Below, one piece after another: positions 24,385 through 47,121 of a DNA stretch of 64,000 nucleotides. The DNA is from Halorientalis sp. IM1011 (GTDB lineage: Archaea > Halobacteriota > Halobacteria > Halobacteriales > Haloarculaceae): NCBI RefSeq assembly GCF_001989615.1, contig NZ_CP019067.1, positions 682,001-746,000 on the forward strand. Direction: 5' to 3'. Positions within the stretch are counted from its first letter, which is position 1, and every line of letters starts with the position of its first letter. The notes below the pieces were generated by a model. It worked only from the letters and a program-made list of their open reading frames with translations, had not been told where the DNA came from and made no database searches. Position numbers and translations under genes: made by a program.

Positions 24385-25026
24385 TCACACCGGTCGGACC
24401 TCGAAGGAGATGAGACTGACTGGAATGTCAGCCAGTTCGACGCCGTCGGGCAGGTCGTCGGCGCTCTCGGGGACGTACCCAGCCGGAAACGCGTCGACGG
24501 TGTCGGGGACGACGAACCCCCAGGTCGCGTTCCGGGCGGCCGTCTCGTCGAAGGGAAGCAGCGGACGAATCCGATCGTACGTGACGGTGCCGTTCCGAGC
24601 GGGCGTGAAAAACGAGTCGTCGGTCGATACGTCGGACTGGTCCCCACGATCCGGCACGATCACGCCGTCGAAGCCGTGGTCGTCGATCACGGTCGCCACT
24701 CGGTCGTCGCCGGCGATCACGAGGTCGAGTTCCCAGCGGTCGACCCAGCGCGCGACGAAGGCGTCGTCGGCGACGGGATCGGCCAGCACGACCGGCGGGA
24801 GCGGGTGGTCGCGGTCGTCGGCCACCTCGCGGACGAGATAGAGTGCGAGCGTCGAGTCCCGGTCGCCGGACCAGACGACAGCGGGTGCGTCGTAGGTGGC
24901 GAGCGCCTCTCCGACCGTGTCGCTCGCGCGCTCGAACTTCGCCGCCAAGGTCGGGTAGTCCGCGGGTGTTTCGCCAGCCCCGTCGGTGTAGTCGATGCCG
25001 GAATCGTCGGCAACGCCCTCGGTCAT
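24385..25026 (-). CDS. Degenerate short paralogue of the adjacent PP-loop enzyme
   Basis: A 213-residue protein clearly homologous to the 322-residue PP-loop protein encoded next upstream (25221-26189). Shared landmarks are IDYTDGAGE-PADYPT (DYTDGEGEDPSDYPT in the neighbour), SGDRDSTLALYLVREVA (TGGKDSTLTLYFIKEVA) and FVVPDTVDAFPAGYVP (FVVPDTVDEYPDDGYVP). About 70 middle residues and the whole C-terminal 40 are missing. The PP-loop reads SGDRDS (53-58) instead of SGGKDS, so ATP-pyrophosphatase activity is doubtful. It could be a regulatory subunit or a decaying copy, but the frame is intact. Confidence 0.75.
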   Translation of the reverse strand: MTEGVADDSGIDYTDGAGETPADYPTLAAKFERASDTVGEALATYDAPAVVWSGDRDSTLALYLVREVADDRDHPLPPVVLADPVADDAFVARWVDRWELDLVIAGDDRVATVIDDHGFDGVIVPDRGDQSDVSTDDSFFTPARNGTVTYDRIRPLLPFDETAARNATWGFVVPDTVDAFPAGYVPESADDLPDGVELADIPVSLISFEVRPV

Positions 25027-25220: not shown

Positions 25221-26189
25221 TCACATGTAGCCGAGGTCGCGCAGGCGCTCCATCAGGTCCTCCTTGTCCTGGGCGCGGCCGGCGCGCTCGGTCGTGTTCT
25301 CCATGTCCTGCAGCCAGGCAGGCTCCTCGGCGGATTTGTCGGTGCTCACTTCGCTACCCAGCGAGCGGAAGCCGGCGAAGTACTTCGGGCTCACGGGCAG
25401 GTCGTCCTTGGTGAGGTCGCCGGGGATGTCGTCCTGACCCTGCGGGACGTAGCCGTCGTCGGGGTACTCGTCGACGGTGTCCGGGACGACGAAGTGCCAG
25501 TAGGCGTTCCACACGTCGGGTTCGGCGAACTGCAGGATCGTCTGGATCCGGTCGTGGGGCGGGTAGATGTCCGGGTCGTGACGCGCCGAGAAGAACGTCT
25601 CGTCGGCGCGGGCTTCCTGTTCGTCCCAGCGGACGCCGGAGAGGATACCGTCCACGTCGTACTCCTCGATGGCGTCGTTGAGGGCGACGGTCTTGAGCAG
25701 GTGGTTGCCGACGTAGGTGTCGAGCAGGAACGGGAAGGTGTCCTCCTCGTACTCCAGAATGTTCCGGATGTGGTGCTGGTTGTGCTCGGAGAGTTCCTCG
25801 ACCGGGATGTCGTCACCGGGAGTCAGGCCGTTCTCCTCGACGTACTCGCCCACGTCCTCGTTGCGGGCGTAGATGAGTTCCAGATCCCACTCGTCGGCCC
25901 ACTTCTCGACGAAGTCGAACAGCTCGTCGAAGTGCTGGTAGTGGTCGATGAACACCGCCGGGGGCACCTCCAGGTCGTACTTCTCGGCGACTTCCTTGAT
26001 GAAGTAGAGGGTCAGCGTCGAGTCCTTCCCACCGGTCCACATCACGACGGGGTTCTCGTACTGTTCGAGACCCTCGCGAGTGACCTCGATGGCCTTCTCG
26101 ATCTTGTCCTCGATGGTCGGGTAATCCGACGGATCTTCGCCTTCACCGTCCGTGTAATCGACGTCCAGGTAGTCGGGGAATTCCGCCAT
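25221..26189 (-). CDS. PP-loop ATP pyrophosphatase, PAPS reductase/CysD-like
   Basis: A 322-residue protein of the phosphoadenosine-phosphosulfate reductase/sulfate adenylyltransferase-subunit-2 superfamily. The PP-loop is WTGGKDSTL (51-59). The C-terminal ERAGRAQDKEDLMERLRDLGYM is like the end of CysD-type proteins. The Cys motif of true PAPS reductases is absent, so sulfate activation or a sulfur-transfer role is more likely than reduction. The ATG at 26189 (MAEFPDYLDVDYTDG) fits the homology with the paralogue downstream; the frame is open further upstream. An AT-rich box lies near 26220-26229. Confidence 0.8.
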   Translation of the reverse strand: MAEFPDYLDVDYTDGEGEDPSDYPTIEDKIEKAIEVTREGLEQYENPVVMWTGGKDSTLTLYFIKEVAEKYDLEVPPAVFIDHYQHFDELFDFVEKWADEWDLELIYARNEDVGEYVEENGLTPGDDIPVEELSEHNQHHIRNILEYEEDTFPFLLDTYVGNHLLKTVALNDAIEEYDVDGILSGVRWDEQEARADETFFSARHDPDIYPPHDRIQTILQFAEPDVWNAYWHFVVPDTVDEYPDDGYVPQGQDDIPGDLTKDDLPVSPKYFAGFRSLGSEVSTDKSAEEPAWLQDMENTTERAGRAQDKEDLMERLRDLGYM

Positions 26190-26329
26190 GGTGTAATGAG
26201 ATGTAATTAGCCCCCGGTAAGTGTTTTTCGGGATGCCAGCAGCATGGGGTGGAGTACCAAAACCGAACGGCCGGCAGGAAGCCACTCGCGGGCCCCTGAA
26301 TTTTAAAGGCGGCCGCCGTAGGCCGAGGC

Positions 26330-26700: not shown

Positions 26701-27819
26701 ATGCGACGATCGTCGCTGCTACTGGTAGTTGCAGGATTGGTACTGTTGGCAGGCTGTTCCGGGCTCACTGGCACCGAGACACCGGTGAATACGGGGGAAA
26801 CGGAAAGCGGTGCCGCCGCTGTCGACGTGTCGACGACGCTCGACGACGAGGCCGTCGCCGGGGTCGGCTACGCCGTCACGGTGGAAGCGGTAAACGAGGG
26901 TGACGCGGCCGGGAACCACACGGTCGATCTCAGCGTCGACGGAGAACAGACCGTCTCGAAGACGGTCCGCGTGGACGCGAACGCCCAGCGGAGTGTCACC
27001 CTTCGTCACGTCTTCGAGGAACCCGGCGAGTACACGGTCGAAGTCGCCGGCGAGTCGACGACGGTGACGGCCATCGAGAATCCGCTACCGCCCGCTCGCG
27101 AGCGGATGCAAAACGTCGATACCATCGTGACGGAGGAACGCCAGTCGATGAACCTCACACTCCAGGGTCAGCAGAGCGGTCGGATGACCATGCGAGGTGA
27201 GGGGACCGGGAGGTACGACATGGTTCGCAATCGGTCCTACACCAGCATGGAGAACGACATCGAGTTCGGCGGGTTCAGTTTCGCCCAGCAGGTCGACACG
27301 TGGTACGCGAACGGGACCGAGTACGAGCGGAGCAAGAACGAAAACGAGATCGAGTACGAGTACGAGACCGAAGAGACGACGTTCGACGACGTGGCACCGG
27401 ACTTCGACATCCCGCTCGAGATGACCAATCAGTCGCGGGCGAGAGTCACCGACGACACCGTGATCGTCAGCGGGAACCTCGACAGTCTCCTGGGACTTGC
27501 AAGCATCTTCGGCAACGCCAGTGACGGGCCGGGCGAGAACGCACTCGAGAAGTTCGAGTCGATGCGCGTCGAGATCGGCGTCGACAGGGAGACAGAGCGG
27601 ATCTCCTACGTCGAATTGGACGTACAGGTGAACGGACTCGAGGTCACCGGCTCCACCGGCAGCGGGAACGTCACGATGCACACCGAATTCGTCGAGTTCG
27701 ATACACAGGTCGACACGGCAATCCCACAGAGCGTCCGCGAGAATACCGTCGGGGGCGGAGAGACGCCCGACACCAGTACAGGGCAGGCGAGTTCGACGAC
27801 CGCATCGCTGGCGGACTGA
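26701..27819 (+). CDS. Secreted lipoprotein with N-terminal CARDB-like domain
   Basis: A 372-residue protein with signal peptide MRRSSLLLVVAGLVLLAGC (lipobox Cys19) and a Thr/Gly-rich spacer. A CARDB-like beta domain (about 40-130) follows, with GYAVTVEAVNEGDAAGNHTVDLSVDGEQTVSKTVRVD. The larger domain after it (135-330) has a strand pattern reminiscent of outer-surface lipoprotein carriers (LolA/LppX type), with MTMRGEGTGRYDMVRNRSY. The C-terminus is Thr/Ser-rich. It is probably anchored to the outside of the membrane. No ligand can be named. Confidence 0.8.
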   Translation: MRRSSLLLVVAGLVLLAGCSGLTGTETPVNTGETESGAAAVDVSTTLDDEAVAGVGYAVTVEAVNEGDAAGNHTVDLSVDGEQTVSKTVRVDANAQRSVTLRHVFEEPGEYTVEVAGESTTVTAIENPLPPARERMQNVDTIVTEERQSMNLTLQGQQSGRMTMRGEGTGRYDMVRNRSYTSMENDIEFGGFSFAQQVDTWYANGTEYERSKNENEIEYEYETEETTFDDVAPDFDIPLEMTNQSRARVTDDTVIVSGNLDSLLGLASIFGNASDGPGENALEKFESMRVEIGVDRETERISYVELDVQVNGLEVTGSTGSGNVTMHTEFVEFDTQVDTAIPQSVRENTVGGGETPDTSTGQASSTTASLAD

Positions 27820-27852
27820 GTTCACGAAGAAATCCCAGCATCGAACGCGGCG

Positions 27853-28003
27853 TCAGCTACTGAACGTGTTGTCCCGCCAGGTGACGCCGGTTGCCCCGTC
27901 GTCCGATGTGGGCTCTTCGACGCCGGTGACGGATGCGGGCCGGTCGCACCGTCGACGATGCATGTCGCGTGGCGTTCGCCGTCGATCGGCGGGACGTAGT
28001 TCG
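27853..28003 (-). pseudogene. Frameshifted 3' fragment of a homologue of the 35.1-35.7 kb gene
   Basis: On the minus strand this stretch encodes RPASVTGVEEPTSDDGATGVTWRDNTFSS and stop, which aligns with the C-terminus of the intact gene at 35086-35679 (RPASVNVVEEPKEDEGANGVNWRDNKFIS). Just upstream another frame reads GERHATCIVDG, matching GELHATRIVDG, so one base is missing near 27940. By hand about four of five bases match over the first 87. Only the last 45 or so codons remain, with no start. It marks the left edge of the polysaccharide locus. Confidence 0.75.
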
Positions 28004-28093
28004 GCCGCGGAGAGGGGCGTTCCGTCCGGAAGGCGTTTCGTTCCGGGCCGGTAAAAGGCCAATAACTACCCCTCAGTCCTACGGATTTCGCTC

Positions 28094-29605
28094 GTGGCAC
28101 CGAGGCCGTCGACACTCCTGCGTCGAGCGCGTCGCCTGCTCAGCCCGGGGGATACCCTGCGCGACCGGACCGTCACCGGTGGTGTGTGGATGACGCTCGT
28201 GACCGGAATCGACCGTGTCGCCCAGCTGGGGCTGTTGATCGTCCTCGCTCGTTTCCTCTCGCCGCACTCGTTCGGACTCATCGGTCTCGGGCTGCTCTCG
28301 CTCGCCGTCCTCCAGAAGGGACTGCGGTTTGGGGTCGACGCCGCGCTCATTCAGCACGAGTCAGACGACATCGACGAGTACCTCGACACGGCGTTGTGGC
28401 TGGGACTGGCACGGGGGACGCTGATCGCGGGGGCGGCGTACCTGCTCGCGCCGGTCGCCGCGACGGCCTTCGATAGCGGCGGGTTAACCGACGTGATCCG
28501 TATACTGGCGCTTTCGCCCTTGTTGACCGGGATGGCGAACCCAGGCGCGGTATACTTTCGGAAGGACCTCGCGTTCGACAAGCAGTTCGTCTACCGCTCC
28601 AGCGGAACCGCCGCGTACGTCTGTGTCGCCCTGGGGGCTGTCCTCGTCGCGGCCAACGTCTGGGCGCTGGTGGCCGGAATCGTGGCCCGGTCGGCGGCAC
28701 GGAGCGTCGTCTCCTATGTGATCCACCCGTATCGTCCGGGATTCGGGTTCGACGGTGCGGCCGCGCGGGAACTGCTGGAATTCGGCAAGTGGATCTTCGG
28801 CTCCGGGCTCGTCTTGCTCGTGCTCAACTGGGGCGACGACGCCGTCGTCGGCTTGCTACTGGGCGCGTCGAGCGTCGGGCTGTACCAGCTCGCCTTCCGC
28901 CTCTCGAACGCTCCGGCGACCGAAGTGAGCCAGGTGGTTTCGACTGTGACCTTCCCCGCGTTCTCCAAGCTCCAAGACGATCCCGACCGGCTCCGCGAGA
29001 CGTACCTCCGCACTCTTCGCGTCCTCGCGTACGTCTCCCTGCCAGTCGCTGTCGGCATCGCTGCCGTCGCCGATGCGTTCGTCAGGGCCTTCTTCGGCCC
29101 GGAGTGGTTTCCGATGATCGACGCCCTGCGCGTGCTGGCAGTCTGGGGCGCGATGCGATCGATCGTCGCCACCATCGGTCCGCTGTTTCGCGCCATCGGC
29201 CGTCCGGCGTACAACACCGCCCTCCAGTCGCTCCGGATGATCGTCTTCCTCGCTGTCCTCCTCCCGGCGACGGCAGCCTGGGGGATCACGGGAACCGCCG
29301 TCGCACTCGTCGTCAGCGCGGCCGTCGAGAACCCGGTCGCGGTGGTCGTGGTCGGACGGACCCTCGACGCCCGGCTCTCCCGGTTTCCCCGTTCGCTCGC
29401 GGTCCCACTGGGGGCGAGTCTGTCCATGGGCGCAGTCGTGGTCGCCGTCGACCGGATCGGCGTGGTCCCCTCGGGTCCTACCGGGGTCGCCGTCCTCGTG
29501 ACGATCGGCGTCGCCTGGTACGCCAGCGTGCTCGGTGCCGTGTACCGCACGAGCGGACTGGACGTGCTGGAGGACGTCGCCCAGGTCCGTGCGGGCCTGG
29601 AGTGA
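28094..29605 (+). CDS. Polysaccharide/oligosaccharide flippase, Wzx-like
   Basis: A 503-residue integral membrane protein of the MOP (multidrug/oligosaccharidyl-lipid/polysaccharide) superfamily, with about 12-14 hydrophobic segments. Typical features are RTVTGGVWMTLVTGIDRVAQLGLLIVLARFLSP at the start, the region DDAVVGLLLGASSVGLYQLAFRL, and LVSTVTFPAFSKLQDDPDRLRETYLRTLRV-like sequence in the middle. It would flip lipid-linked glycans across the membrane. The start is a GTG at 28094. It is the first gene of the polysaccharide locus and faces a glycosyltransferase gene tail to tail. Confidence 0.88.
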   Translation: MAPRPSTLLRRARRLLSPGDTLRDRTVTGGVWMTLVTGIDRVAQLGLLIVLARFLSPHSFGLIGLGLLSLAVLQKGLRFGVDAALIQHESDDIDEYLDTALWLGLARGTLIAGAAYLLAPVAATAFDSGGLTDVIRILALSPLLTGMANPGAVYFRKDLAFDKQFVYRSSGTAAYVCVALGAVLVAANVWALVAGIVARSAARSVVSYVIHPYRPGFGFDGAAARELLEFGKWIFGSGLVLLVLNWGDDAVVGLLLGASSVGLYQLAFRLSNAPATEVSQVVSTVTFPAFSKLQDDPDRLRETYLRTLRVLAYVSLPVAVGIAAVADAFVRAFFGPEWFPMIDALRVLAVWGAMRSIVATIGPLFRAIGRPAYNTALQSLRMIVFLAVLLPATAAWGITGTAVALVVSAAVENPVAVVVVGRTLDARLSRFPRSLAVPLGASLSMGAVVVAVDRIGVVPSGPTGVAVLVTIGVAWYASVLGAVYRTSGLDVLEDVAQVRAGLE

Positions 29606-29637
29606 CTCCGGCGGCCGGGACACCGGCGCGGGTCGAC

Positions 29638-30618
29638 CTACGTCGGCCGGGCCCGGACGGTCGATACGTAGTGTGAAACGCGCTCGAACAGTCGTCGACA
29701 CACTCGCGCAGGCTCGTAGGTGTAGCGCCCACCGACGGCGACGAGAAGATACAGGTAGGTCGCGGCGGCCGTCGGGTCGTACCGGAGCGCCCGCAGGAGG
29801 TACCGGACGCCGTCGAAGTACCGCTGACTCCGGAGAGCGGCGAGGCCGACGTACCGGTTCAGCGTCGCGAGGAACGTCCGCTCGTAGCCGGGGTCGACCG
29901 CTGCGATCCGGTCGCGGTGCTTCTGAACCAGTAGCGGGTAAGCCACGTCGCGGCGAGCTTCGTAGTCGTCCGATATCTGCCGGTCGTCGTGATACCGCCG
30001 GACCGTCAGTGGCTCCGGGATCGAGACGTAGTCGTAGTCGGCCGCGACGGAGAAGTACCACTCCCGGTCCTGCCAGCAGGGGAACCGCTCGTCCGTGAGT
30101 CCGGCGCTGTCGAACACGTCCGCCCGGGCCATGACGGCCGAAAAGGTCCCGAAGGTCGCACCACGGACGAGCTGTTCGAGGAAGTCGCCGTCCGTGACGG
30201 GACTGGTCGTCGCCGTCGTCGTCCCGTTCTCGTCGACGTACACCAGCCCGGTGAACGCGACGCCGACGGCCTCGTCCGCACCGCGGAGCGCCGAGACCTG
30301 TCGCGCCAGCTTGCCGGGCCGCCAGTAGTCGTCGTCGTCGAGGAACGCGACGAACTCACCGCGAGCCGCCTCGATCCCCGTATTTCTGGCGGCGTTCGCG
30401 CCGCGGTTCTCCTCGTGGCGCAGCACGCGGAGATCGGTGTCGGCCGGCGGGGTGACCTCGGCCAGCGCCTGCTCCGCCGGCAACTCCGAGGCATCGTCGA
30501 CGACGAGTAGCTCGACGTTCCCGTACGTCTGCCTAAAGACGCTCTCGACCGCCTCGACGAGCATGGCCGAGCGCTCGTAGGTCGGCACCACGACGCTCAC
30601 CAGTGGGACATCACACAT
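29638..30618 (-). CDS. GT2 family glycosyltransferase
   Basis: A 326-residue GT-A fold transferase: VSVVVPTYERSAMLVEAVESVFRQTY at the start, LLVVDDASE, GANAARNTGIEAARGEFVAFLDDDDYW with the metal-binding DDD, and a C-terminal helical part. It adds a sugar from a nucleotide-sugar donor, probably on a lipid-linked intermediate at the cytoplasmic face. The ATG at 30618 (MCDVPLVSVVVPTYE) is preferred to a GTG five codons upstream. It precedes nothing on its strand except the tail-to-tail flippase, and follows the hydrolase gene. Confidence 0.88.
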   Translation of the reverse strand: MCDVPLVSVVVPTYERSAMLVEAVESVFRQTYGNVELLVVDDASELPAEQALAEVTPPADTDLRVLRHEENRGANAARNTGIEAARGEFVAFLDDDDYWRPGKLARQVSALRGADEAVGVAFTGLVYVDENGTTTATTSPVTDGDFLEQLVRGATFGTFSAVMARADVFDSAGLTDERFPCWQDREWYFSVAADYDYVSIPEPLTVRRYHDDRQISDDYEARRDVAYPLLVQKHRDRIAAVDPGYERTFLATLNRYVGLAALRSQRYFDGVRYLLRALRYDPTAAATYLYLLVAVGGRYTYEPARVCRRLFERVSHYVSTVRARPT

Positions 30619-30738
30619 ATTTTCTGCATCCACGTTCGGTGAAATATTCAGTTAGTTATCTGCTTCTTTCGGCGTGTTTCGGGCCGTATACCGTCGGCGA
30701 ACGAGTCGGCTACCGCTCGCCCGTTCGCTCCGGGCCCC

Positions 30739-31857
30739 TCAGAACGCCCCCTGGAACTCCTCGTCGGTCAGTCGACGGGCGTGGTCGGGGTGAGCTGGCA
30801 GGACCTGATCCGCGACCACCGCTTTCCGGTAGGCCTCGTACACGTCGTACGTCTCGCCGTCGTGGGTCCAGGTGTGGGTCCCCCGCTCACCGTCGAACAC
30901 GCCCCAGTCGGTCTCGTCCTCGACGTTGAACCAGCAGGCCATCCGCACGTCGCGGGTCCGGAAGTACTCGAAAACACGTTCGATCCACTCCGCCTTCCGA
31001 TCGGGGTGGTACTCGTCTTCGATGCGCGAGGAACAGCCGTACTCGGAGATGGCGATGGGCTTGTCGGCGATCGACCGAAGCGCGTCGATCACCCCGTCGT
31101 AGAGGGTAGCGGGATCGTTCCAGCCGCCCCACTGATACCGGTTGTACCCGTGAAATGCCAGCCAGTCGACCGCGTCGTCACCCGGGTAGTGCGCCGAGAG
31201 GGGGTTATCGTCGCGGCTGACCATGTTCGGGGCCCAGATCCACTGGACGTGGTGGCTCTCGACCTCGTCACTGGTGAGTCGGTCCTGGAGGGAGTCCCAC
31301 ATCGCGACGAAGTCCGACGGCGTCGTGTCGCCAGTGGCCGCCCCCCAGGGGACCCAGTCACCGTTCATCTCCGGGGCGAGGTTGATGTAGAGTCGTCTGT
31401 CGTTCCCGTGCCGGTCACCGCCGGTGAGCCAATCCGTCAGCTCGGTCCGCCAGACGGCGAGACGATCGTCGTAGTCCCCCGCGGTGATCGCGGATGCCAC
31501 GTCGGCGTCAGTCTCCTCAGCCGTCGAGAAAAACGGCTGCAGTGTTACCTGCGGCACGATTCCGAAGCCCCACAGTTGCGTGAGTCGATCGTGGAACGTC
31601 TCGATCCGGTCGGGCGACCAGCCGAGGTTGGCGTAGACGACCACGGTTGCCGGCGGCGCGTCCAGCCACGCGGCGAGCGTCTCCATCCGATCGCGGTCGG
31701 TCGCGGCCGGCGATATGCCGTGGAGTACCTGCCCGTCGCGGGTCGGCGCGGACCGTGACCGGCCAGAGGAATGGTTCAGCCGTTGGTACAGTCCCCAGCT
31801 GCCGACCGTCACCCCGAGACCCGAACCGAGAGCCATCAGCGCGCGTCGCCGGTTCAT
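30739..31857 (-). CDS. Secreted GH26-like glycoside hydrolase
   Basis: A 372-residue protein with a twin-arginine-type N-terminus (MNRRRALMALGSGLGVTVG) that probably directs export. The rest has a TIM-barrel pattern of GH26-type mannanases and related enzymes: YINLAPEMNGDWVPWG with the acid/base Glu163 next to Asn, HVQWIWAPN, HGYNRYQWGGW, and the nucleophile candidate Glu272 in IAISEYGCSS. Both Glu residues needed for a retaining mechanism are present. It would trim or turn over a cell-surface or environmental polysaccharide; in this locus, the product of the synthase is the natural candidate. Confidence 0.8.
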   Translation of the reverse strand: MNRRRALMALGSGLGVTVGSWGLYQRLNHSSGRSRSAPTRDGQVLHGISPAATDRDRMETLAAWLDAPPATVVVYANLGWSPDRIETFHDRLTQLWGFGIVPQVTLQPFFSTAEETDADVASAITAGDYDDRLAVWRTELTDWLTGGDRHGNDRRLYINLAPEMNGDWVPWGAATGDTTPSDFVAMWDSLQDRLTSDEVESHHVQWIWAPNMVSRDDNPLSAHYPGDDAVDWLAFHGYNRYQWGGWNDPATLYDGVIDALRSIADKPIAISEYGCSSRIEDEYHPDRKAEWIERVFEYFRTRDVRMACWFNVEDETDWGVFDGERGTHTWTHDGETYDVYEAYRKAVVADQVLPAHPDHARRLTDEEFQGAF

Positions 31858-31927
31858 GGGTACCCGTCCGCCCAGGCTTCGGATTGTTATGACGTGTGTA
31901 CTGGCGGCGCTGTTTCAGCGCCGGGGC

Positions 31928-32659
31928 TCACCGTACCATCCCCCTCAGCCTGCCGAGTGTCTTGGCGACGCTCCCGCCGAATCGGGCGGCTGCGTGCGGA
32001 GGCGACAGCCCCGCGTAGTTCGTTGGATCGAGCGCGTACTGGACGATCCGCAGCCACTGTCGCCGCCGGCTGACGCCCCGACACTCCCAGTAGTACGGCG
32101 TCTGGGTCTCCAACCGGTACATCTTGTGCCAGTAGTCCGGGATCGAGTCCGCGTAGCTGTGGGCGACCACCAGATCGGGATCGTAGTAGATCGGGAACGA
32201 CTCTCGGACCCGATCGGCCAGTTCCTTTTCTTCGTGTCCCCAGCTGAACCCTTCGTTCCACGTCCCGACCGTGTCGAATACGTCTGCCCGCACGGCCATG
32301 TTGCAACCCCAAAATCGATCGACGTACCTGCTCTCCGGGCCGAAATCGTAGTGGCCCGTCAGGCGACGGGCAAAGACATCGTCGCGGGGATGGACGGTCC
32401 GCCCCGCGACCGCCGCCTCTCGGTCCAGGACCGACGCGGCGCGGGACAGATACCCCTCACAGGGACGTGAATCGTCGTCGAGGAACACGAGTTTGTCGGC
32501 GGAGGCCCGCCGAATCCCCGCGTTGCGCGCCGCCGTCACGGTCTGGTCGTCGCGGACGAGCAGCTCGAAGTCGGCTGACGCCGTCCGGTCGAGTCGCTGG
32601 ACGACCGGCAGCTCCGACGGCGGGGAGAGCGACGGGACGATTACGCTCAGTTCCGGCAT
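31928..32659 (-). CDS. GT2 family glycosyltransferase
   Basis: A 243-residue GT-A transferase with MPELSVIVPSLSPPSELPVV at the start, FELLVRDDQTVTAARNAGIRRASADKLVFLDDDSRPCEGYL with the DDD metal site, and a motif FSWGHEEKELADRVR that resembles the acceptor-side ED/EE region of GT2 enzymes. It lacks membrane spans. The ATG at 32659 is preferred over one ten codons earlier because MPELSVIVPSL matches the family start. It runs toward the hydrolase gene (70-base gap), so the two and the next transferase may form a unit. Confidence 0.86.
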   Translation of the reverse strand: MPELSVIVPSLSPPSELPVVQRLDRTASADFELLVRDDQTVTAARNAGIRRASADKLVFLDDDSRPCEGYLSRAASVLDREAAVAGRTVHPRDDVFARRLTGHYDFGPESRYVDRFWGCNMAVRADVFDTVGTWNEGFSWGHEEKELADRVRESFPIYYDPDLVVAHSYADSIPDYWHKMYRLETQTPYYWECRGVSRRRQWLRIVQYALDPTNYAGLSPPHAAARFGGSVAKTLGRLRGMVR

Positions 32660-32946
32660 CCGTTCACCCTCGTTCACGGACAGGACCAATTGTTACCCGC
32701 GTCGTACCCGTGTCTTTCGACGGCAGTAGGAGTACCCTGCAATCGAATTGGGGGTAGCTGGGACGAACCGTCTGCCCCGTGACCCGCCGATCCCCGTCAG
32801 ACTGTGCCAGATTTGCGACCGATCGCCTGGATCGGTGTGATGCCCGAGCGGGCACAGACCCTACGTGGTCGATACCCGTTAGAAGCTATCACCTTTAAAC
32901 CCAGTTTGACGCGAATAACTTTATTTTCATTCCATCCACCTCGTGT
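32660..32946. promoter_or_regulatory. Divergent intergenic region with tandem hairpins
   Basis: This 287-base gap lies between the leftward transferase and the rightward zinc-ribbon/synthase pair. It holds a 7-bp inverted repeat (32818-32824 with 32830-32836) and a 6-bp one (32841-32846 with 32849-32854), side by side. A clear TATA-like box, CTTTATTTT at 32919-32927, lies 20-28 bases before the ATG at 32947. The hairpins could be operator sites for the locus. Confidence 0.5.
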
Positions 32947-33285
32947 ATGGAACTTAGTGACGCTCGCCACGAAGAACGGCGAGTCGACACGACGGTCGCC
33001 GACGGTCCGGTTCAGACGACAGATGACCGTGTCGAAGCGCGCGAGCCGTTGTGGTGCCCAGGCTGTGAGACGGAACTGGTTCGATCGGAGACGGTCTACG
33101 AACACGAGTCCTGTGGCCACGTGGACCTTCAGCGAGCGTTCGAGTGCGACGAGGGGGTCCAATGTCCCGCCTGCGAGGGACCCGGCCAGTTGGAGTTCCT
33201 GCGTCGGGTCGCCTCGGTCCTCCGCTGTGACGACTGCGGGCAGTTGTTCGACGCACCGCCTCGTCCGGGTGGTCGGGGACAGTAA
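32947..33285 (+). CDS. Double zinc-ribbon protein ahead of the polysaccharide synthase
   Basis: A 112-residue protein. The first 33 residues are charged and without motif. Then come CPGC (37-40) with a distant Cys-Gly-His (ESCGHVDL) and a second pair, CPAC and CDDC, consistent with one or two zinc ribbons. No catalytic motif is seen. It ends two bases before the synthase ATG, so it is translated with it. A regulatory subunit or an RNA/DNA-binding control protein are equally possible. Confidence 0.7.
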   Translation: MELSDARHEERRVDTTVADGPVQTTDDRVEAREPLWCPGCETELVRSETVYEHESCGHVDLQRAFECDEGVQCPACEGPGQLEFLRRVASVLRCDDCGQLFDAPPRPGGRGQ

Positions 33286-33287
33286 CG

Positions 33288-34952
33288 ATGACACGGTTTC
33301 CTGGCCGTCCATCGGTCGACGTCGCCACGATAGCGCTCGCGCTGGTCTTCATCTTCCCGGCACTGACGCTCGTGGTTCCGGGGTGGGTGACGGCCATTCC
33401 GGCGGTCGCGGCGATCTGCTTCGTGTTCGCGCTGATCGGCTCACACCTCCGGTCCGGAAAGTCCGGGGACGGGTGGAGCCTCCCGCTCCCGGTCTGGATA
33501 CTCGTCTCGATGCCGATATTCTGGCTGGTGTCGCTCCTCGTGGCGGCCACGGGGTCGCTCTCGCCGGCATCGGTGGCGCTCGGGGCGGTGATCGCTGTCG
33601 CGGGAGTCCACCTCATCGGCGCGCTCGGGAGCGCCGACCTCCGCCAGTGGCTCGCCGCCCGGCGGGACGTCACCGGCTGGCTGCTCGGCTACCTCGCGCT
33701 CTGTTCGACCGTCGTGTTCGGGGTGGCGTACTTCACTACCGCCTCACCCTTCCGGTTGGGCGTCTTTGCCGGATTCGTGGTCCTCGCGATCTACCTCTGG
33801 CTCGTCGTCCCGCTCGCGACGATCGAACACTGTCGCCGACGGTCGCTCCCCGACCCCGAGCCACCGTACCCGACCGTCAGCGTCATCGTCCCGGCCTACA
33901 ACGAGGAGGGCTACGTCGGCGAGTGCATCGAGAGCATCCTCGACACGACCTACCCGACCGATCGACTGGAGGTCGTCGTCGTCGACGACGGGAGCGAGGA
34001 CGGAACCTTTCAGGAAGCCACACAGCACCGGAGCGAGACGGTCTCGGTCTACCACAAGGACAACGGCGGGAAGTACTCGGCTCTGAACTTCGGGCTGCTG
34101 TGTTCCTCCGGAGATATCGTCGTCTGCGTCGATGCCGACAGCCGACTGCTACCCGACTCCCTGTCGTCGGTCGTCGCGGAGTTTCAGGCCGACCCCGATG
34201 TGGGTGCGATCGCGGGCAACGTCAAGGTGGAAAACCGCTCGGGGCTGCTCACCCGATTACAGGCCATCGAGTACCTCGTCGGTATCAACACCTACCGCCG
34301 TGCGTTCTCCTGGTTCGGAGCCGTGCCGATCGTGCCCGGTTGTCTCTCCGGGTTCCGGCGCGAAGCCCTCGAGGGAGCCAGCGGCTACGATCCCGACACC
34401 GTCACCGAGGACTTCGACCTCACCGTGAAGGTGCTCAAGTGTGGGTGGACGGTCCGTCAGAGCGAGGCGGCGGTCCTGACCGAAGCACCGTTCACCCTCC
34501 GGGACCTCTACCGTCAGCGTCGTCGCTGGTTCACCGGGGCCGTGGAGACGCTGCTGAAACACCGGGGCGTGCTCTTCGACGGTACCACTGGGAACCTCCA
34601 CCGGTTTTCGTTTCCCTTCTACGTGCTCCGGGTCTTCCTGACGCCCGTCATCGCCGTCCTGATGTACGTCGGAGTGGCACTGGCCGTGCTCGCCCGTCCG
34701 TACGAGACGCTGCTGTTGACGGTCCTTCCGCTGCTGGGGATCGCCAGCCTCTATGCCCTGCTGGTCATCCGGATGGAAGACGAGAGCCTGTGGTTGCTGC
34801 CCTACGTCGTCGTTTACGTAGTCGGGTTCAAGCAGTTCCTCGAAGGGACGCTCGTCGTCAGCCTCGTCCGCGCGTTCGTCAGCGAGGACTACGAGTGGGG
34901 CGACGTCAGGAGAGCGGCTCAGCTCGACGAGTTCGCCACCGACGGGGACTGA
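33288..34952 (+). CDS. Membrane-embedded processive GT2 polysaccharide synthase
   Basis: A 554-residue protein like cellulose, hyaluronan and NodC synthases. About five or six hydrophobic segments (10-180) precede the GT2 domain with VSVIVPAYNEEGYV, DDGS (233-236), DADS (282-285), TEDFD (373-377) and QRRRW (410-414), the D,D,D-QxxRW signature of processive enzymes. A further membrane bundle (about 425-525) follows. It would polymerise a sugar nucleotide and extrude the chain through the membrane. The identity of the sugar is not visible. It is co-transcribed with the zinc-ribbon gene. Confidence 0.9.
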   Translation: MTRFPGRPSVDVATIALALVFIFPALTLVVPGWVTAIPAVAAICFVFALIGSHLRSGKSGDGWSLPLPVWILVSMPIFWLVSLLVAATGSLSPASVALGAVIAVAGVHLIGALGSADLRQWLAARRDVTGWLLGYLALCSTVVFGVAYFTTASPFRLGVFAGFVVLAIYLWLVVPLATIEHCRRRSLPDPEPPYPTVSVIVPAYNEEGYVGECIESILDTTYPTDRLEVVVVDDGSEDGTFQEATQHRSETVSVYHKDNGGKYSALNFGLLCSSGDIVVCVDADSRLLPDSLSSVVAEFQADPDVGAIAGNVKVENRSGLLTRLQAIEYLVGINTYRRAFSWFGAVPIVPGCLSGFRREALEGASGYDPDTVTEDFDLTVKVLKCGWTVRQSEAAVLTEAPFTLRDLYRQRRRWFTGAVETLLKHRGVLFDGTTGNLHRFSFPFYVLRVFLTPVIAVLMYVGVALAVLARPYETLLLTVLPLLGIASLYALLVIRMEDESLWLLPYVVVYVVGFKQFLEGTLVVSLVRAFVSEDYEWGDVRRAAQLDEFATDGD

Positions 34953-35085
34953 GCCTGGCAGGCGCTCTCGAGGGAGTATCTCCCGGGAGCGTCGGACGGT
35001 GAACGAGCGCCGACGCTGGGGCTGCTACGAGAGCACGAGAAACGGCTGCGGTGATCGCGCGTTGCGTAATCGGGGTCGGCGTGAC

Positions 35086-35679
35086 TCAGGAGATGAACTT
35101 GTTGTCGCGCCAGTTGACGCCGTTTGCCCCTTCGTCTTCCTTGGGCTCCTCGACGACGTTGACGGAGGCGGGGCGTTCCTCGCCGTCGACGATACGGGTG
35201 GCGTGGAGTTCGCCGTCGACCGCGACGACGGCGGTCAACGTGCCTTTCTCGGCGATCGAGGCGATGCCACAGAGGACTTCGAACATCGGGTACTGGAGCG
35301 CCGTGTTCTGGAGAACGGTTTCGCGGTCGCCCTTGAAACAGGCGTACTCGACGAGTTCGGACTCGATCTCCTCCTCTTCCTCTTCGAGCGTCCCCCACTG
35401 CGGGCCGCCGCCACTGCCACCGCCTGGGCCGCCTGGTCGGTCCTCGGGTTCTTCCTCGTACACCCTGTTTTCAGTGATGCTTGCTTTCAGTTGTGCCGTC
35501 GGCGTGTACTTGCTCATGCTCTCGTCGGCGGCCACGGCACTGATGATCAGTGTGTTGTTCCGCCGAGTGATGTCGATGTCCTCCATCTCCACCGGGAGAT
35601 CGGGGTCTTCGAAATACTCGTACACGTCTTCGAGCGGCAATTCGAGTGTCGAATGGAGTCTGAATACATGGCTTGTCAT
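35086..35679 (-). CDS. Haloarchaeal conserved protein, DUF7110-like
   Basis: A 197-residue soluble protein: MTSHVFRLHSTLELPLEDVYEYFEDPDLPVEMEDIDITRRNNTLIISAVAADES, a Gly/Pro-rich linker with an acidic run (GGPGGGSGGGPQWG, EEEEEEIESE), and a C-terminal strand-rich part ending NWRDNKFIS. I recall it as a family of unknown function in haloarchaea (DUF7110, from memory). A 3' fragment of a homologue lies at 27853-28003 on the same strand, on the other side of the polysaccharide genes. Confidence 0.7.
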   Translation of the reverse strand: MTSHVFRLHSTLELPLEDVYEYFEDPDLPVEMEDIDITRRNNTLIISAVAADESMSKYTPTAQLKASITENRVYEEEPEDRPGGPGGGSGGGPQWGTLEEEEEEIESELVEYACFKGDRETVLQNTALQYPMFEVLCGIASIAEKGTLTAVVAVDGELHATRIVDGEERPASVNVVEEPKEDEGANGVNWRDNKFIS

Positions 35680-35911: not shown

Positions 35912-36943
35912 ATGAGTGAGGAACACGAGTACGGAGTCGTCGTCGTGGGCGGCGGACCGGCGGGGCTAACAGCGGCGCTGTACACGACGCGACTGGGCCA
36001 CGACACCGCCGTCATCAACCGCGGCGGCGGCCGCGCGGCGATGATGCAGGAGACCCACAACGTCATCGGGACTACCGAAGAGGTATCGGGCAACGAGTTG
36101 CTCCAGACGGCCATCGAGCAGATCGAGGGCTACGGCGCGGACTACCACCGCGACTTCGTGACCGACGCCGAACGACTCGACGACGGTCGGATCCGGCTCG
36201 AAGCCGGCGATATCACCGCCGTCGCCGACCGCGTCGTCCTCGCGACCGGATTCTCGGACGGCCGGCCCGACCCGCCAGCGCCCCGGACGGGTCGGGGGCT
36301 CCACTACTGTCTGCACTGTGACGCCTACATGTTCGTCGACGAGTCGGTGTACGTGATGGGCCACGGGGACAGCACTGCCCACGTCGCGATGATCATGCTC
36401 AACTTCACCGACGAGGTGGACGTGCTGCTGAACGGCGACGAGCCAACCTGGAGCGAGGAGACCGACGAACTGGTCCGCGCGCACCCGGTCGACATCGTCG
36501 AAGAAGAAGTGACGGGCGTCGAGAACGGCGAGGACGGCTGGCTCGAAGCCCTCGAGTTCGCGGATGGCACGCGCCGGGAGTACCGCGGCGGTTTCGCCAT
36601 GTACGGATCCGACTACAACACCGACCTCGCCGAACAGTTGGGCGTCGAGTTGAACGACGACGGGACCATCGCGGTCGACGATCACGGCAACACGAGCGCC
36701 GACGGCGTCTACGCGGTCGGCGACGTGGTGCCCGGCCACAACCAGATCCCCGTCGCGATGGGACAAGGGGCCAAGGCCGGCATCGACATCCACTACGAGC
36801 TGCGGACCTACCCGATGTCGAAAGAAGAGATCGAGGCGGCGGGCGGGATCGACGCCGACGACGTACCGGCGGTCTCCGACGACCTCCGTGCGTCCGCGCA
36901 GGCCCACCGCGAGGACGGCGGGAAAGCGAGCGCGGACGACTGA
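35912..36943 (+). CDS. Thioredoxin-reductase-like FAD/NAD(P) flavoprotein
   Basis: A 343-residue class II oxidoreductase. The FAD-binding motif is VVVGGGPAGLTAALYTTRLG (10-29), followed by VVLATGFSDGRPD, the redox-active CLHC (Cys133, Cys136) where thioredoxin reductases have CATC, a pyridine-nucleotide-binding region VMGHGDSTAH (modified GxGxxx), and the C-terminal GVYAVGDVVPGHNQIPVAMGQG. It probably passes electrons to a thioredoxin- or glutaredoxin-like partner. The ATG at 35912 (MSEEHEYGVVVVGGG) is the sensible start; the open frame upstream lacks motifs. Confidence 0.9.
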   Translation: MSEEHEYGVVVVGGGPAGLTAALYTTRLGHDTAVINRGGGRAAMMQETHNVIGTTEEVSGNELLQTAIEQIEGYGADYHRDFVTDAERLDDGRIRLEAGDITAVADRVVLATGFSDGRPDPPAPRTGRGLHYCLHCDAYMFVDESVYVMGHGDSTAHVAMIMLNFTDEVDVLLNGDEPTWSEETDELVRAHPVDIVEEEVTGVENGEDGWLEALEFADGTRREYRGGFAMYGSDYNTDLAEQLGVELNDDGTIAVDDHGNTSADGVYAVGDVVPGHNQIPVAMGQGAKAGIDIHYELRTYPMSKEEIEAAGGIDADDVPAVSDDLRASAQAHREDGGKASADD

Positions 36944-45102: not shown

Positions 45103-45429
45103 TCAATCGTCGGCAGCCGCCCCAGCCGTCTCCTCGGCGTCGGCCTCGATACTGGGCGGGTACTTCCCGCGATCCAGCACGAGGTCGGATTGCGGCCGCG
45201 CCATACAGGTCAGCGCGTACTCCTCGCGCTCGGCATCGGTGAGTCCGTGCGCCGCGGGCTGGGTGACTTCGCCCTCGACGACCTTCGCCGAGCAGGCAAG
45301 ACACATCCCGACCCGACAGGAGTACTCCTGGGCGATCCCCTCCTCGATGCACCGGCGGAGGATCGTCTCCGTCTCCGAGACCGTGATCTGTTCCCCCGTC
45401 CCCGCGAATTCGACGGTGTAGTCGGTCAT
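45103..45429 (-). CDS. 2Fe-2S plant-type ferredoxin
   Basis: A 108-residue ferredoxin with Cys38, Cys43, Cys46 and Cys75 in YSCRVGMCLACSAKVVEG and LTCMARP, the CX4CX2CX(n)C pattern of plant/cyanobacterial-type 2Fe-2S proteins. Acidic residues are frequent at the ends, as usual in halophiles. It transfers single electrons; partners are not evident here, though the geranylgeranyl reductase divergent from it may use a ferredoxin as reductant. The ATG at 45429 (MTDYTVEFAGTGEQ) is preferred over an upstream in-frame start at 45456. Confidence 0.93.
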   Translation of the reverse strand: MTDYTVEFAGTGEQITVSETETILRRCIEEGIAQEYSCRVGMCLACSAKVVEGEVTQPAAHGLTDAEREEYALTCMARPQSDLVLDRGKYPPSIEADAEETAGAAADD

Positions 45430-45539
45430 ACCCTCGGATTGGGCACCACCTGTCAAAGGTCTTTATCCCGGAACTCGTCCCCGCCGCGAGGACAGGACGG
45501 GAATAAAGAGTTTTCTCGATGGGGCAATCAGGGGCGAAT

Positions 45540-46952
45540 ATGGCTACACAGGAGGCCGACACCGGTGATTCGACCGCCGGTGGCGGGACCCGGTCGTACG
45601 ACATCGTCGTCGTGGGGGCGGGGACGGCAGGGTGTTACGCGGCCGCGACCGCCGCACGCGAAGGACTCGACGTCGTCATCGTCGAGCGCAAGTCCGAGCA
45701 GGAGGCCGGACACATCGCCTGCGGGGACGCGCTGAAGGGCGCCGACAACTTCCCGGACAGCATCCCCAAATCGCAGATCGAACCGGCCTTCACGAACACC
45801 GTCGTGGATCACGGGCGCTTCGAGATTCCCTCCGAGGACGCGGTGCTCGACATCCCGGTCCCGGGCGAACTCGCCGTCATCGACCGCTGGGAGTACGGCC
45901 GCCTGCTGATCGAGGGCGCGGAGAAAGCCGGCGTCGAGTTCCACTACGACACGGTCGTCCAGGACGTGAACCAGACCGCGGACGGTCGCGTGACCGGCGT
46001 CGACGCCGTGCGGCAGGGCGAACCGATCACCTACGAGGCCGACGTGACCATCGACGCCGCGGGCGCGCTGTCGATCCTGCAGGACAACGCCGACCTCTCG
46101 GATGCGACCTTCGACACCAACGTCAACTACTCGCAGTTCTCCTCGGGCTACCGGGAGATCATCGAGGTCGACGAGCCAGTGGACTGGTCCGACGCGCTGG
46201 TCTTCAAGCCGACCAAGCGGGCCTCGGGCTACCTCTGGTACTTCCCGCGGACTTCGACGGAGATCAACGTCGGCCTCGGCTTCCAGATGAACGAGGAGCC
46301 GATGCAACTGGTCGAGGACCTCAAGGAGGACGTGCGCAACCGGCCTGAGTTCGAGAACGCACGCGTCACGGACAAACTCGGCGCGGCGCTGCCGACCCGG
46401 CGGCCCTACGACTCGGCGGTCGCACCCGGCTTCCTCGCGGTCGGCGACGCCGCCGGCCACGTCAACCCGACGACCGGCGGCGGCATCGCCGGCGCGGCCT
46501 ACGCCGGCCAGTACGCCGCAGAGGAGGCCATCGACGCCCTCGGCACTGGTGACCTCGGTGAGGGCGCACTCTGGGAGTACAACCGCCGGATCATGGACCA
46601 CTTCGGCGGGCGCTACGCCGCGCTGGACGTGTACAACATCTTCACGATGGCCTACGATCTGGACGACCTGATGGCATTGCTGGCCGCGATGCCGGGCGAA
46701 CAGCTCGCGGAAGCCCTCTACGAGGGGTCGACCGACATCAGCCTCCCCCTGAAGGTGAAGACGGCGATCAAGACCTTCGGCCACTGGAAGACGATCTACG
46801 ACCTCTACCAGACGAAGAACCTGGCCGACCGCCTGCTCGACCACTACGGGAGCTACCCGACGTCCCCCGACGGGTTCGAGTCCTGGCGTGCCGACCGCGA
46901 CGCCGTGATGGACGAGATCTACGAGACGACCGGCGCCGAACCGAAGTACTGA
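45540..46952 (+). CDS. Geranylgeranyl reductase family flavoprotein
   Basis: A 470-residue FAD protein: VVVGAGTAGCYAAATAAREGLDVVIVER is the dinucleotide-binding start, IACGDALKGAD and the DRWEYGRLLIEGAEKAG segment follow the family, and FLAVGDAAGHVNPTTGGGIAGAAYAGQ is the C-terminal FAD-binding part. In archaea such enzymes saturate the isoprenoid chains of membrane lipids or quinones. A TATA-like GAATAAAGAG at 45501-45510 lies about 34 bases before the ATG at 45540, which supports this start over the one at 45519. The 2Fe-2S ferredoxin gene is divergent and adjacent. Confidence 0.9.
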   Translation: MATQEADTGDSTAGGGTRSYDIVVVGAGTAGCYAAATAAREGLDVVIVERKSEQEAGHIACGDALKGADNFPDSIPKSQIEPAFTNTVVDHGRFEIPSEDAVLDIPVPGELAVIDRWEYGRLLIEGAEKAGVEFHYDTVVQDVNQTADGRVTGVDAVRQGEPITYEADVTIDAAGALSILQDNADLSDATFDTNVNYSQFSSGYREIIEVDEPVDWSDALVFKPTKRASGYLWYFPRTSTEINVGLGFQMNEEPMQLVEDLKEDVRNRPEFENARVTDKLGAALPTRRPYDSAVAPGFLAVGDAAGHVNPTTGGGIAGAAYAGQYAAEEAIDALGTGDLGEGALWEYNRRIMDHFGGRYAALDVYNIFTMAYDLDDLMALLAAMPGEQLAEALYEGSTDISLPLKVKTAIKTFGHWKTIYDLYQTKNLADRLLDHYGSYPTSPDGFESWRADRDAVMDEIYETTGAEPKY

Positions 46953-47121
46953 CGGCCGCGAGAACCGCTCTTTCCCCGTTTGACTTAAACCCCCGGCGAT
47001 CAATCGCTCAAGATTTATCAGGTATAACTACAAACAATGTTACACGACGGGGGCGGTACCTTCGTGGGCATGTGGTGCTGTGCGGGCGTGACAGTAGGTG
47101 ACCGTCCCGGTGGGGGCAACC

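Follow-up and report, generated by a model that had tools for sequence, protein, structure and literature searches.

A polysaccharide gene block at the 3′ end of a DUF7110 gene in Halorientalis sp. IM1011, a candidate integration site in haloarchaea

How did a set of polysaccharide genes come to stand between a whole gene and a broken piece of the same gene? The question is raised by a 64,000-nucleotide stretch of DNA (hereafter the window) from Halorientalis sp. IM1011 (contig NZ_CP019067.1, positions 682,001 to 746,000), in which an intact DUF7110 gene lies at one end of a polysaccharide block and a displaced fragment of its 3′ end lies at the other, both on the minus strand (Table 1).

The repeat and the block between its copies

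The intact DUF7110 gene matched its Pfam family over the full length. The fragment was found to be a frameshifted, decayed copy of the final ∼139 bases of this gene, and was the top BLASTN match within the window (the runner-up had an E-value of 0.05). Self-comparison of the 64-kb window detected no other repeat at E ≤ 1e-10. The DUF7110 homology of the fragment ran from the stop codon, the position of which was retained (27851–27853), up to about 27989 and ended there; no homology above chance was detected in the ∼100 bases upstream of this limit. The preliminary description of this DNA had reported a whole gene and a frameshifted 3′ fragment of its homologue on the same strand. This repeat was recovered by BLASTN (80.6% identity over 129 bases, with one 1-base deletion), close to the earlier hand alignment (about 80% over 87 bases plus a one-base deletion), although the limits given for the fragment, 27853–28003, were slightly off. 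The 11-base sequence AACAAGTTCAT (hereafter the core) occurred in a single copy in the window when up to one mismatch was allowed, inside the intact gene. Its equivalent in the fragment, AACACGTTCAG, carried two differences, and the fragment homology reached ∼120 bases beyond it.

Table 1. Features of the locus, with window coordinates
Feature	Position	Strand	Evidence
PAPS-reductase-family gene, left flank	25221..26285	-	PF01507 E 3.6e-16; adjoins DUF7110 in most block-free relatives
Lipoprotein gene, left neighbour of insertion	26701..27819	+	Adjoins intact DUF7110 in H. regularis, displaced 18-base tail in H. persicus
Displaced decayed DUF7110 3′ end	27851..27989	-	80.6% over 129 b, E 1.25e-28; pseudogene-like substitutions
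Fragment's equivalent of the core, AACACGTTCAG	27858..27868	-	Alignment; 2 differences
Inserted unique DNA, ∼7.1 kb	27990..35085	.	Absent from H. regularis empty site; joined flanks align 3295 b, 83.8%
Polysaccharide flippase, MOP family	28094..29605	+	PF13440 E 4.3e-75; NCBIfam MOP flippase E 7e-72, below cut-off
GT2 glycosyltransferase	29638..30633	-	PF00535 E 4.8e-32
Glycoside hydrolase family 26-like protein (GH26)	30739..31857	-	PF02156 E 2.2e-7
Second GT2-like glycosyltransferase	31928..32689	-	71% to G352, 57% to G186; PF00535 E 5e-7
Small zinc-ribbon-like frame (weak)	32899..33282	+	Conserved upstream of synthase-like GT2 in other haloarchaea; PF18551 below cut-off
Membrane GT2, synthase-like (PgaC/chitin-synthase type)	33288..34952	+	PF00535 E 2.1e-35, PF03142 E 2.2e-23; TIGR03937 E 2.8e-53, below cut-off
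Intact DUF7110 gene, 197 aa	35086..35679	-	PF23422 E 1.8e-99; match in 37/39 relatives
Core AACAAGTTCAT in intact gene	35093..35103	-	Bounds inserts in H. persicus and G090
Thioredoxin-reductase-like gene, right flank	35912..36943	+	PF07992 E 1.7e-34; same neighbour in congeners

The flippase, transferase, hydrolase and synthase genes named earlier were all found in the block; the second GT2-like gene and the small frame upstream of the synthase-like gene had been left unnamed. The GC content of the block was about that of the host. Neither an integrase nor a remnant of one was found within it by tblastn with the recombinase of H. persicus or by domain searches, and the Phage_integrase matches of this genome all lay outside the window; the block was therefore not classed as a complete integrative element. 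There were no tRNA genes in the window.

The GH26 gene was present in 38 of 392 genomes of the order, and in only one of eight members of the genus, that of the window. Its relatives in other haloarchaea were 34–57% identical. GH26 and synthase-like GT2 genes recurred as neighbours in several haloarchaeal genomes with differing surroundings, so that the module appears to move as a unit, and the copy in the window was probably acquired. The closest block found was that of G352 (probably Natrinema), with GH26 50%, GT2 53% and the second GT2 71% identical, in a different gene order. No plasmid donor was found; plasmid matches were only 60–80% identical and covered at most 16% of the block. In Halomarina rubra (L131 3844–11737) and Halomarina oriensis (L127 3844–11732), a diverged GH26/synthase-like GT2 pair was seen beyond the thioredoxin-reductase gene; because its GH26 was only ∼41% identical to that of the window, this pair probably arrived independently. 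A homologue of window positions 45109–46958 (up to 79% identical) was also seen in Halomarina oriensis (L201), directly beside the GH26/synthase/thioredoxin-reductase/DUF7110 group.

The empty site and the decay of the fragment

In a tree of the rpoB region, the species of the window grouped with H. regularis (G002), H. persicus (G004), G005 and G007. In H. regularis a gap of ∼100 bases, free of polysaccharide genes, separates the lipoprotein gene from the stop codon of a complete DUF7110 gene. When the flanks of the window were joined without positions 27851–35085, they gave one alignment to H. regularis, 3295 bases at 83.8% identity, which passed through the junction. In G001, H. salina (G003), G005 and G007, DUF7110 adjoins the PAPS-reductase gene and the block is absent there; remnants of the lipoprotein gene lie between the two genes in G007. 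Each of the seven other members of the genus had one DUF7110 C-terminus. The preliminary description had suggested looking for a relative without the polysaccharide genes in which DUF7110 and the lipoprotein gene are direct neighbours, which is the arrangement of H. regularis, and had named two copies in block-free relatives as an outcome that would speak against its proposal; no such second copy was found in the seven congeners.

Two further observations were made in these genomes. At window positions 24385–25026 the PAPS-reductase gene has a further, diverged relative as its neighbour, and similar second copies are present in G001, G002, G004 and G007. In G006 (L037 5115–19901; L088), pilin and Mrp-antiporter genes lie on the 3′ side of DUF7110 and the PAPS-reductase gene is ∼120 kb away, a gene order which implies a rearrangement breakpoint at the same place.

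The fragment carried 14 private substitutions, distributed as 3, 8 and 3 over codon positions 1, 2 and 3, whereas the lineage-unique changes in functional DUF7110 copies over the same stretch were distributed as 1, 2 and 8 (Fisher p 0.017). The fragment was therefore regarded as a pseudogene free of protein selection. By raw differences, it had changed at 11 of about 89 first and second codon positions (∼12%), while the third-position divergence between the DUF7110 gene of the window and those of G002, G004 and G005 was ∼21%, or ∼10% per lineage. A decay of about half the interspecies divergence suggests that it is roughly as old as the species split, which agrees with the earlier impression of an old event.

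Where the intact copy departs from the group formed by G002, G004, G005 and G007, the fragment usually shows the state of the group; for instance, the last serine codon is AGC in the fragment and the group, and TCC in the intact copy. No private states common to the fragment and the intact copy were found in the alignment. In these states the fragment resembles a distinct Halorientalis allele, and the simplest reading is that it was the tail of the resident gene. The alignment available for placing it in a tree was short (144 columns), and the fragment as sister to the intact copy was not rejected (p-AU 0.25). Comparison of the 5′ part of the intact gene with its last 137 bases gave no sign of differing origin. 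Across the family, the last serine codon of DUF7110 was seen to switch between AGY and TCN, a two-base change, among close relatives; such switching could reflect repeated replacement of the gene end by insertions.

Other DNA at the same gene end, and how the block may have arrived

The same gene end was found to be occupied in two other genomes. In H. persicus, contig 25 carries the lipoprotein gene, next to it AACAAGTTCATCAGCTGA with native flank, and then a small protein gene and a gene for a 326-aa tyrosine recombinase (Phage_integrase, E 4e-23). The recombinase gene thus sits by a displaced DUF7110 tail, the final 18 bases of the gene. The intact DUF7110 gene, on contig 51, reads AACAAGTTCAT-ATCGGATTAA, with a protein ending in NKFISD, indicating that its stop-codon end was replaced. 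Beyond it lie low-GC genes with Mrr-, PLD- and PQQ-domains. A recombinase beside one att copy, an att repeat and a replaced gene end were thus all present, with the two junctions on separate contigs. The regions L087 1834–3344 (the recombinase and the small upstream gene) and L033 1–13190 were seen as the two ends of an integrative element, the latter with Mrr/PQQ, PLD-nuclease and Mrr genes that gave weak matches to anti-phage defence models.

In G090 (probably Halomarina; its genus code, g12, includes Halomarina genomes), the insert was 14.3 kb long with ∼57% GC (L090 4300–18620). It is limited by DUF7110 AACAAGTTCAT-TAGTTAG at one side and by AACAAGTTCATCAGCTAG at the other, followed by the PAPS-reductase gene. 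It contains mostly lipoprotein-like and unknown frames together with an HTH_10 regulator, and no integrase was found in it. The junctions of H. persicus and G090 had the 11-base core in common, and the stop-codon end was replaced in both. As the core was expected by chance 0.0017 times in the G090 stretch, it was concluded that these 11 bases delimit the inserts of both genera, which are unrelated to each other. A home-made integrase profile, applied to 80 DUF7110 loci up to 10 kb downstream and to the other fetched loci, gave a match in H. persicus only, and core-bounded inserts were limited to these two genomes among the loci reaching up to 10 kb downstream. The H. persicus integrase and DUF7110 were both absent from viral contigs, and relatives of this integrase elsewhere in the order were only 30–37% identical.

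The preliminary description had proposed either an island that integrated at the 3′ end of a gene or recombination between copies. Measured against the H. regularis empty site, the block is an insertion at the DUF7110 3′ end, and one route or the other, integrase-type or recombinational import, very probably accounts for it. Of the two routes we favour, with modest confidence, site-specific insertion of the kind known for e14 in icd, by an integrase that was later lost. The ancestral order would have been PAPS-reductase, lipoprotein, DUF7110 and thioredoxin-reductase genes. A mobile element would then have integrated into the DUF7110 3′ end, bringing the polysaccharide block; the intact gene would have retained its functional 3′ end or been given one, and what is presumably the original tail would have ended up across the block and decayed there without selection, while the integrase disappeared after integration. 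This reading gains strength from H. persicus and G090, in which the same gene end holds unrelated insertions. The element need not be of the H. persicus lineage, since the repeat of the window (∼139 bases) is longer than the 11-base core. This repeat puts the crossover at least ∼137 bases upstream of the stop codon. Only an element that brought additional DUF7110 sequence with it could have used the point seen in H. persicus and G090, and room must therefore be left for another recombinase or for a donor allele imported with the block by homologous recombination. The missing integrase, the repeat of ∼139 rather than 11 bases, the lack of a signal of separate origin at the 3′ end, the host-like GC and the location of the H. 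persicus junctions on two contigs all count against an integrase-type route.

The import route, which we consider possible although the less probable of the two, supposes that homologous recombination brought in the DUF7110 gene of a donor Halorientalis with the block downstream of it, without any site-specific recombinase. The right joint would have formed by homology in or beyond DUF7110, and the left one within the resident copy, ∼137 bases upstream of the stop codon, so that the resident tail was left behind. Import accounts for the long repeat and the missing integrase, and it fits the several sites at which the intact copy differs from G002, G004, G005 and G007 while the fragment matches them; the flanking genes, moreover, give conflicting relationships within the genus, suggesting that recombination is common there. 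However, a donor in which DUF7110 adjoins this block was not found, the other congeners all lack the block, the left joint requires an illegitimate junction, and the use of the same gene end by the unrelated inserts of H. persicus and G090 is left unexplained.

A tandem duplication of DUF7110, with the block arriving later between the copies and the left copy lost except for its 3′ end, would likewise leave one complete copy and a 3′ remnant in the same orientation, and the p-AU given above does not reject the fragment as sister to the intact copy. We regard it as improbable: it requires two events, the two copies have no private state in common, and no tandem DUF7110 pair was present in 146 genomes of the family. 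The extra copies in the family were diverged paralogues in G019 and G159 and an assembly overlap in G048, in which the apparent second DUF7110, with identical genes at both ends of contig C1, was rejected as a contig-end overlap of 99.96% identity over 18.2 kb. It is least probable that the block was ancestral at the locus and lost in the other species, with the fragment unconnected with its arrival: the two Halomarina species do have their GH26/synthase pair near DUF7110, across the thioredoxin-reductase gene, but that GH26 is less similar to the one in the window than those of G352 (50%) and G090 (49%) at unrelated places, and DUF7110 beside the PAPS-reductase gene without a block was the usual order among the loci surveyed.

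A possible docking site and its known counterparts

Integration sites in archaea are known mostly in tRNA genes. With unrelated DNA beside it in two relatives of the window's species, the DUF7110 tail appears to have served mobile DNA as a docking site more than once. Whether integration recurs at this tail in two or more genera of the family, with the integrase-bearing element, the low-GC insert and the polysaccharide block as its users and with the last codons and stop replaced time and again, is in our judgement evenly balanced. If it is, DUF7110, a conserved gene of unknown function, would be a protein-coding counterpart of the attB sites in tRNA genes. With the end of one protein-coding gene in use in more than one genus of haloarchaea, islands could be sought there, and displaced DUF7110 tails would be a marker for dating them. 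The locus would also illustrate how genes for a surface polysaccharide can be added to a haloarchaeal chromosome while a conserved gene stays whole. DUF7110 was not named in the literature searched, and its use as a target in more than one haloarchaeal genus appears to be unreported there.

Integration into the 3′ ends of protein-coding genes, including stop-codon replacement, is known in archaea and bacteria (PMC6563490; PMC8371274). Like the block, e14 of E. coli K-12 is inserted in the 3′ portion of a protein-coding gene, icd, with the whole gene at one end and a displaced same-strand 3′ fragment at the other, of 163 bp compared with ∼139 bases here (PMC6379469). In contrast to the block, which has no integrase and carries polysaccharide genes only, e14 excises and is recognised as an element of prophage type. 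Genomic islands in tRNA genes, as in the Islander concept (PMC4383910), are likewise marked at their two ends by a regenerated target and a displaced fragment; the target in the window is instead a protein-coding gene. NitEve-E2 of Nitrososphaera (PMC6563490) has a different target gene and host group, and the much longer repeat of the window would point to a degenerate element or one of another kind. NitEve-E2 nevertheless has a short att near the 3′ end, of 13 bp compared with the 11 bp in H. persicus and G090, and it replaces the stop-codon end of its target and supplies a new stop, exactly as the inserts in these two genomes do.
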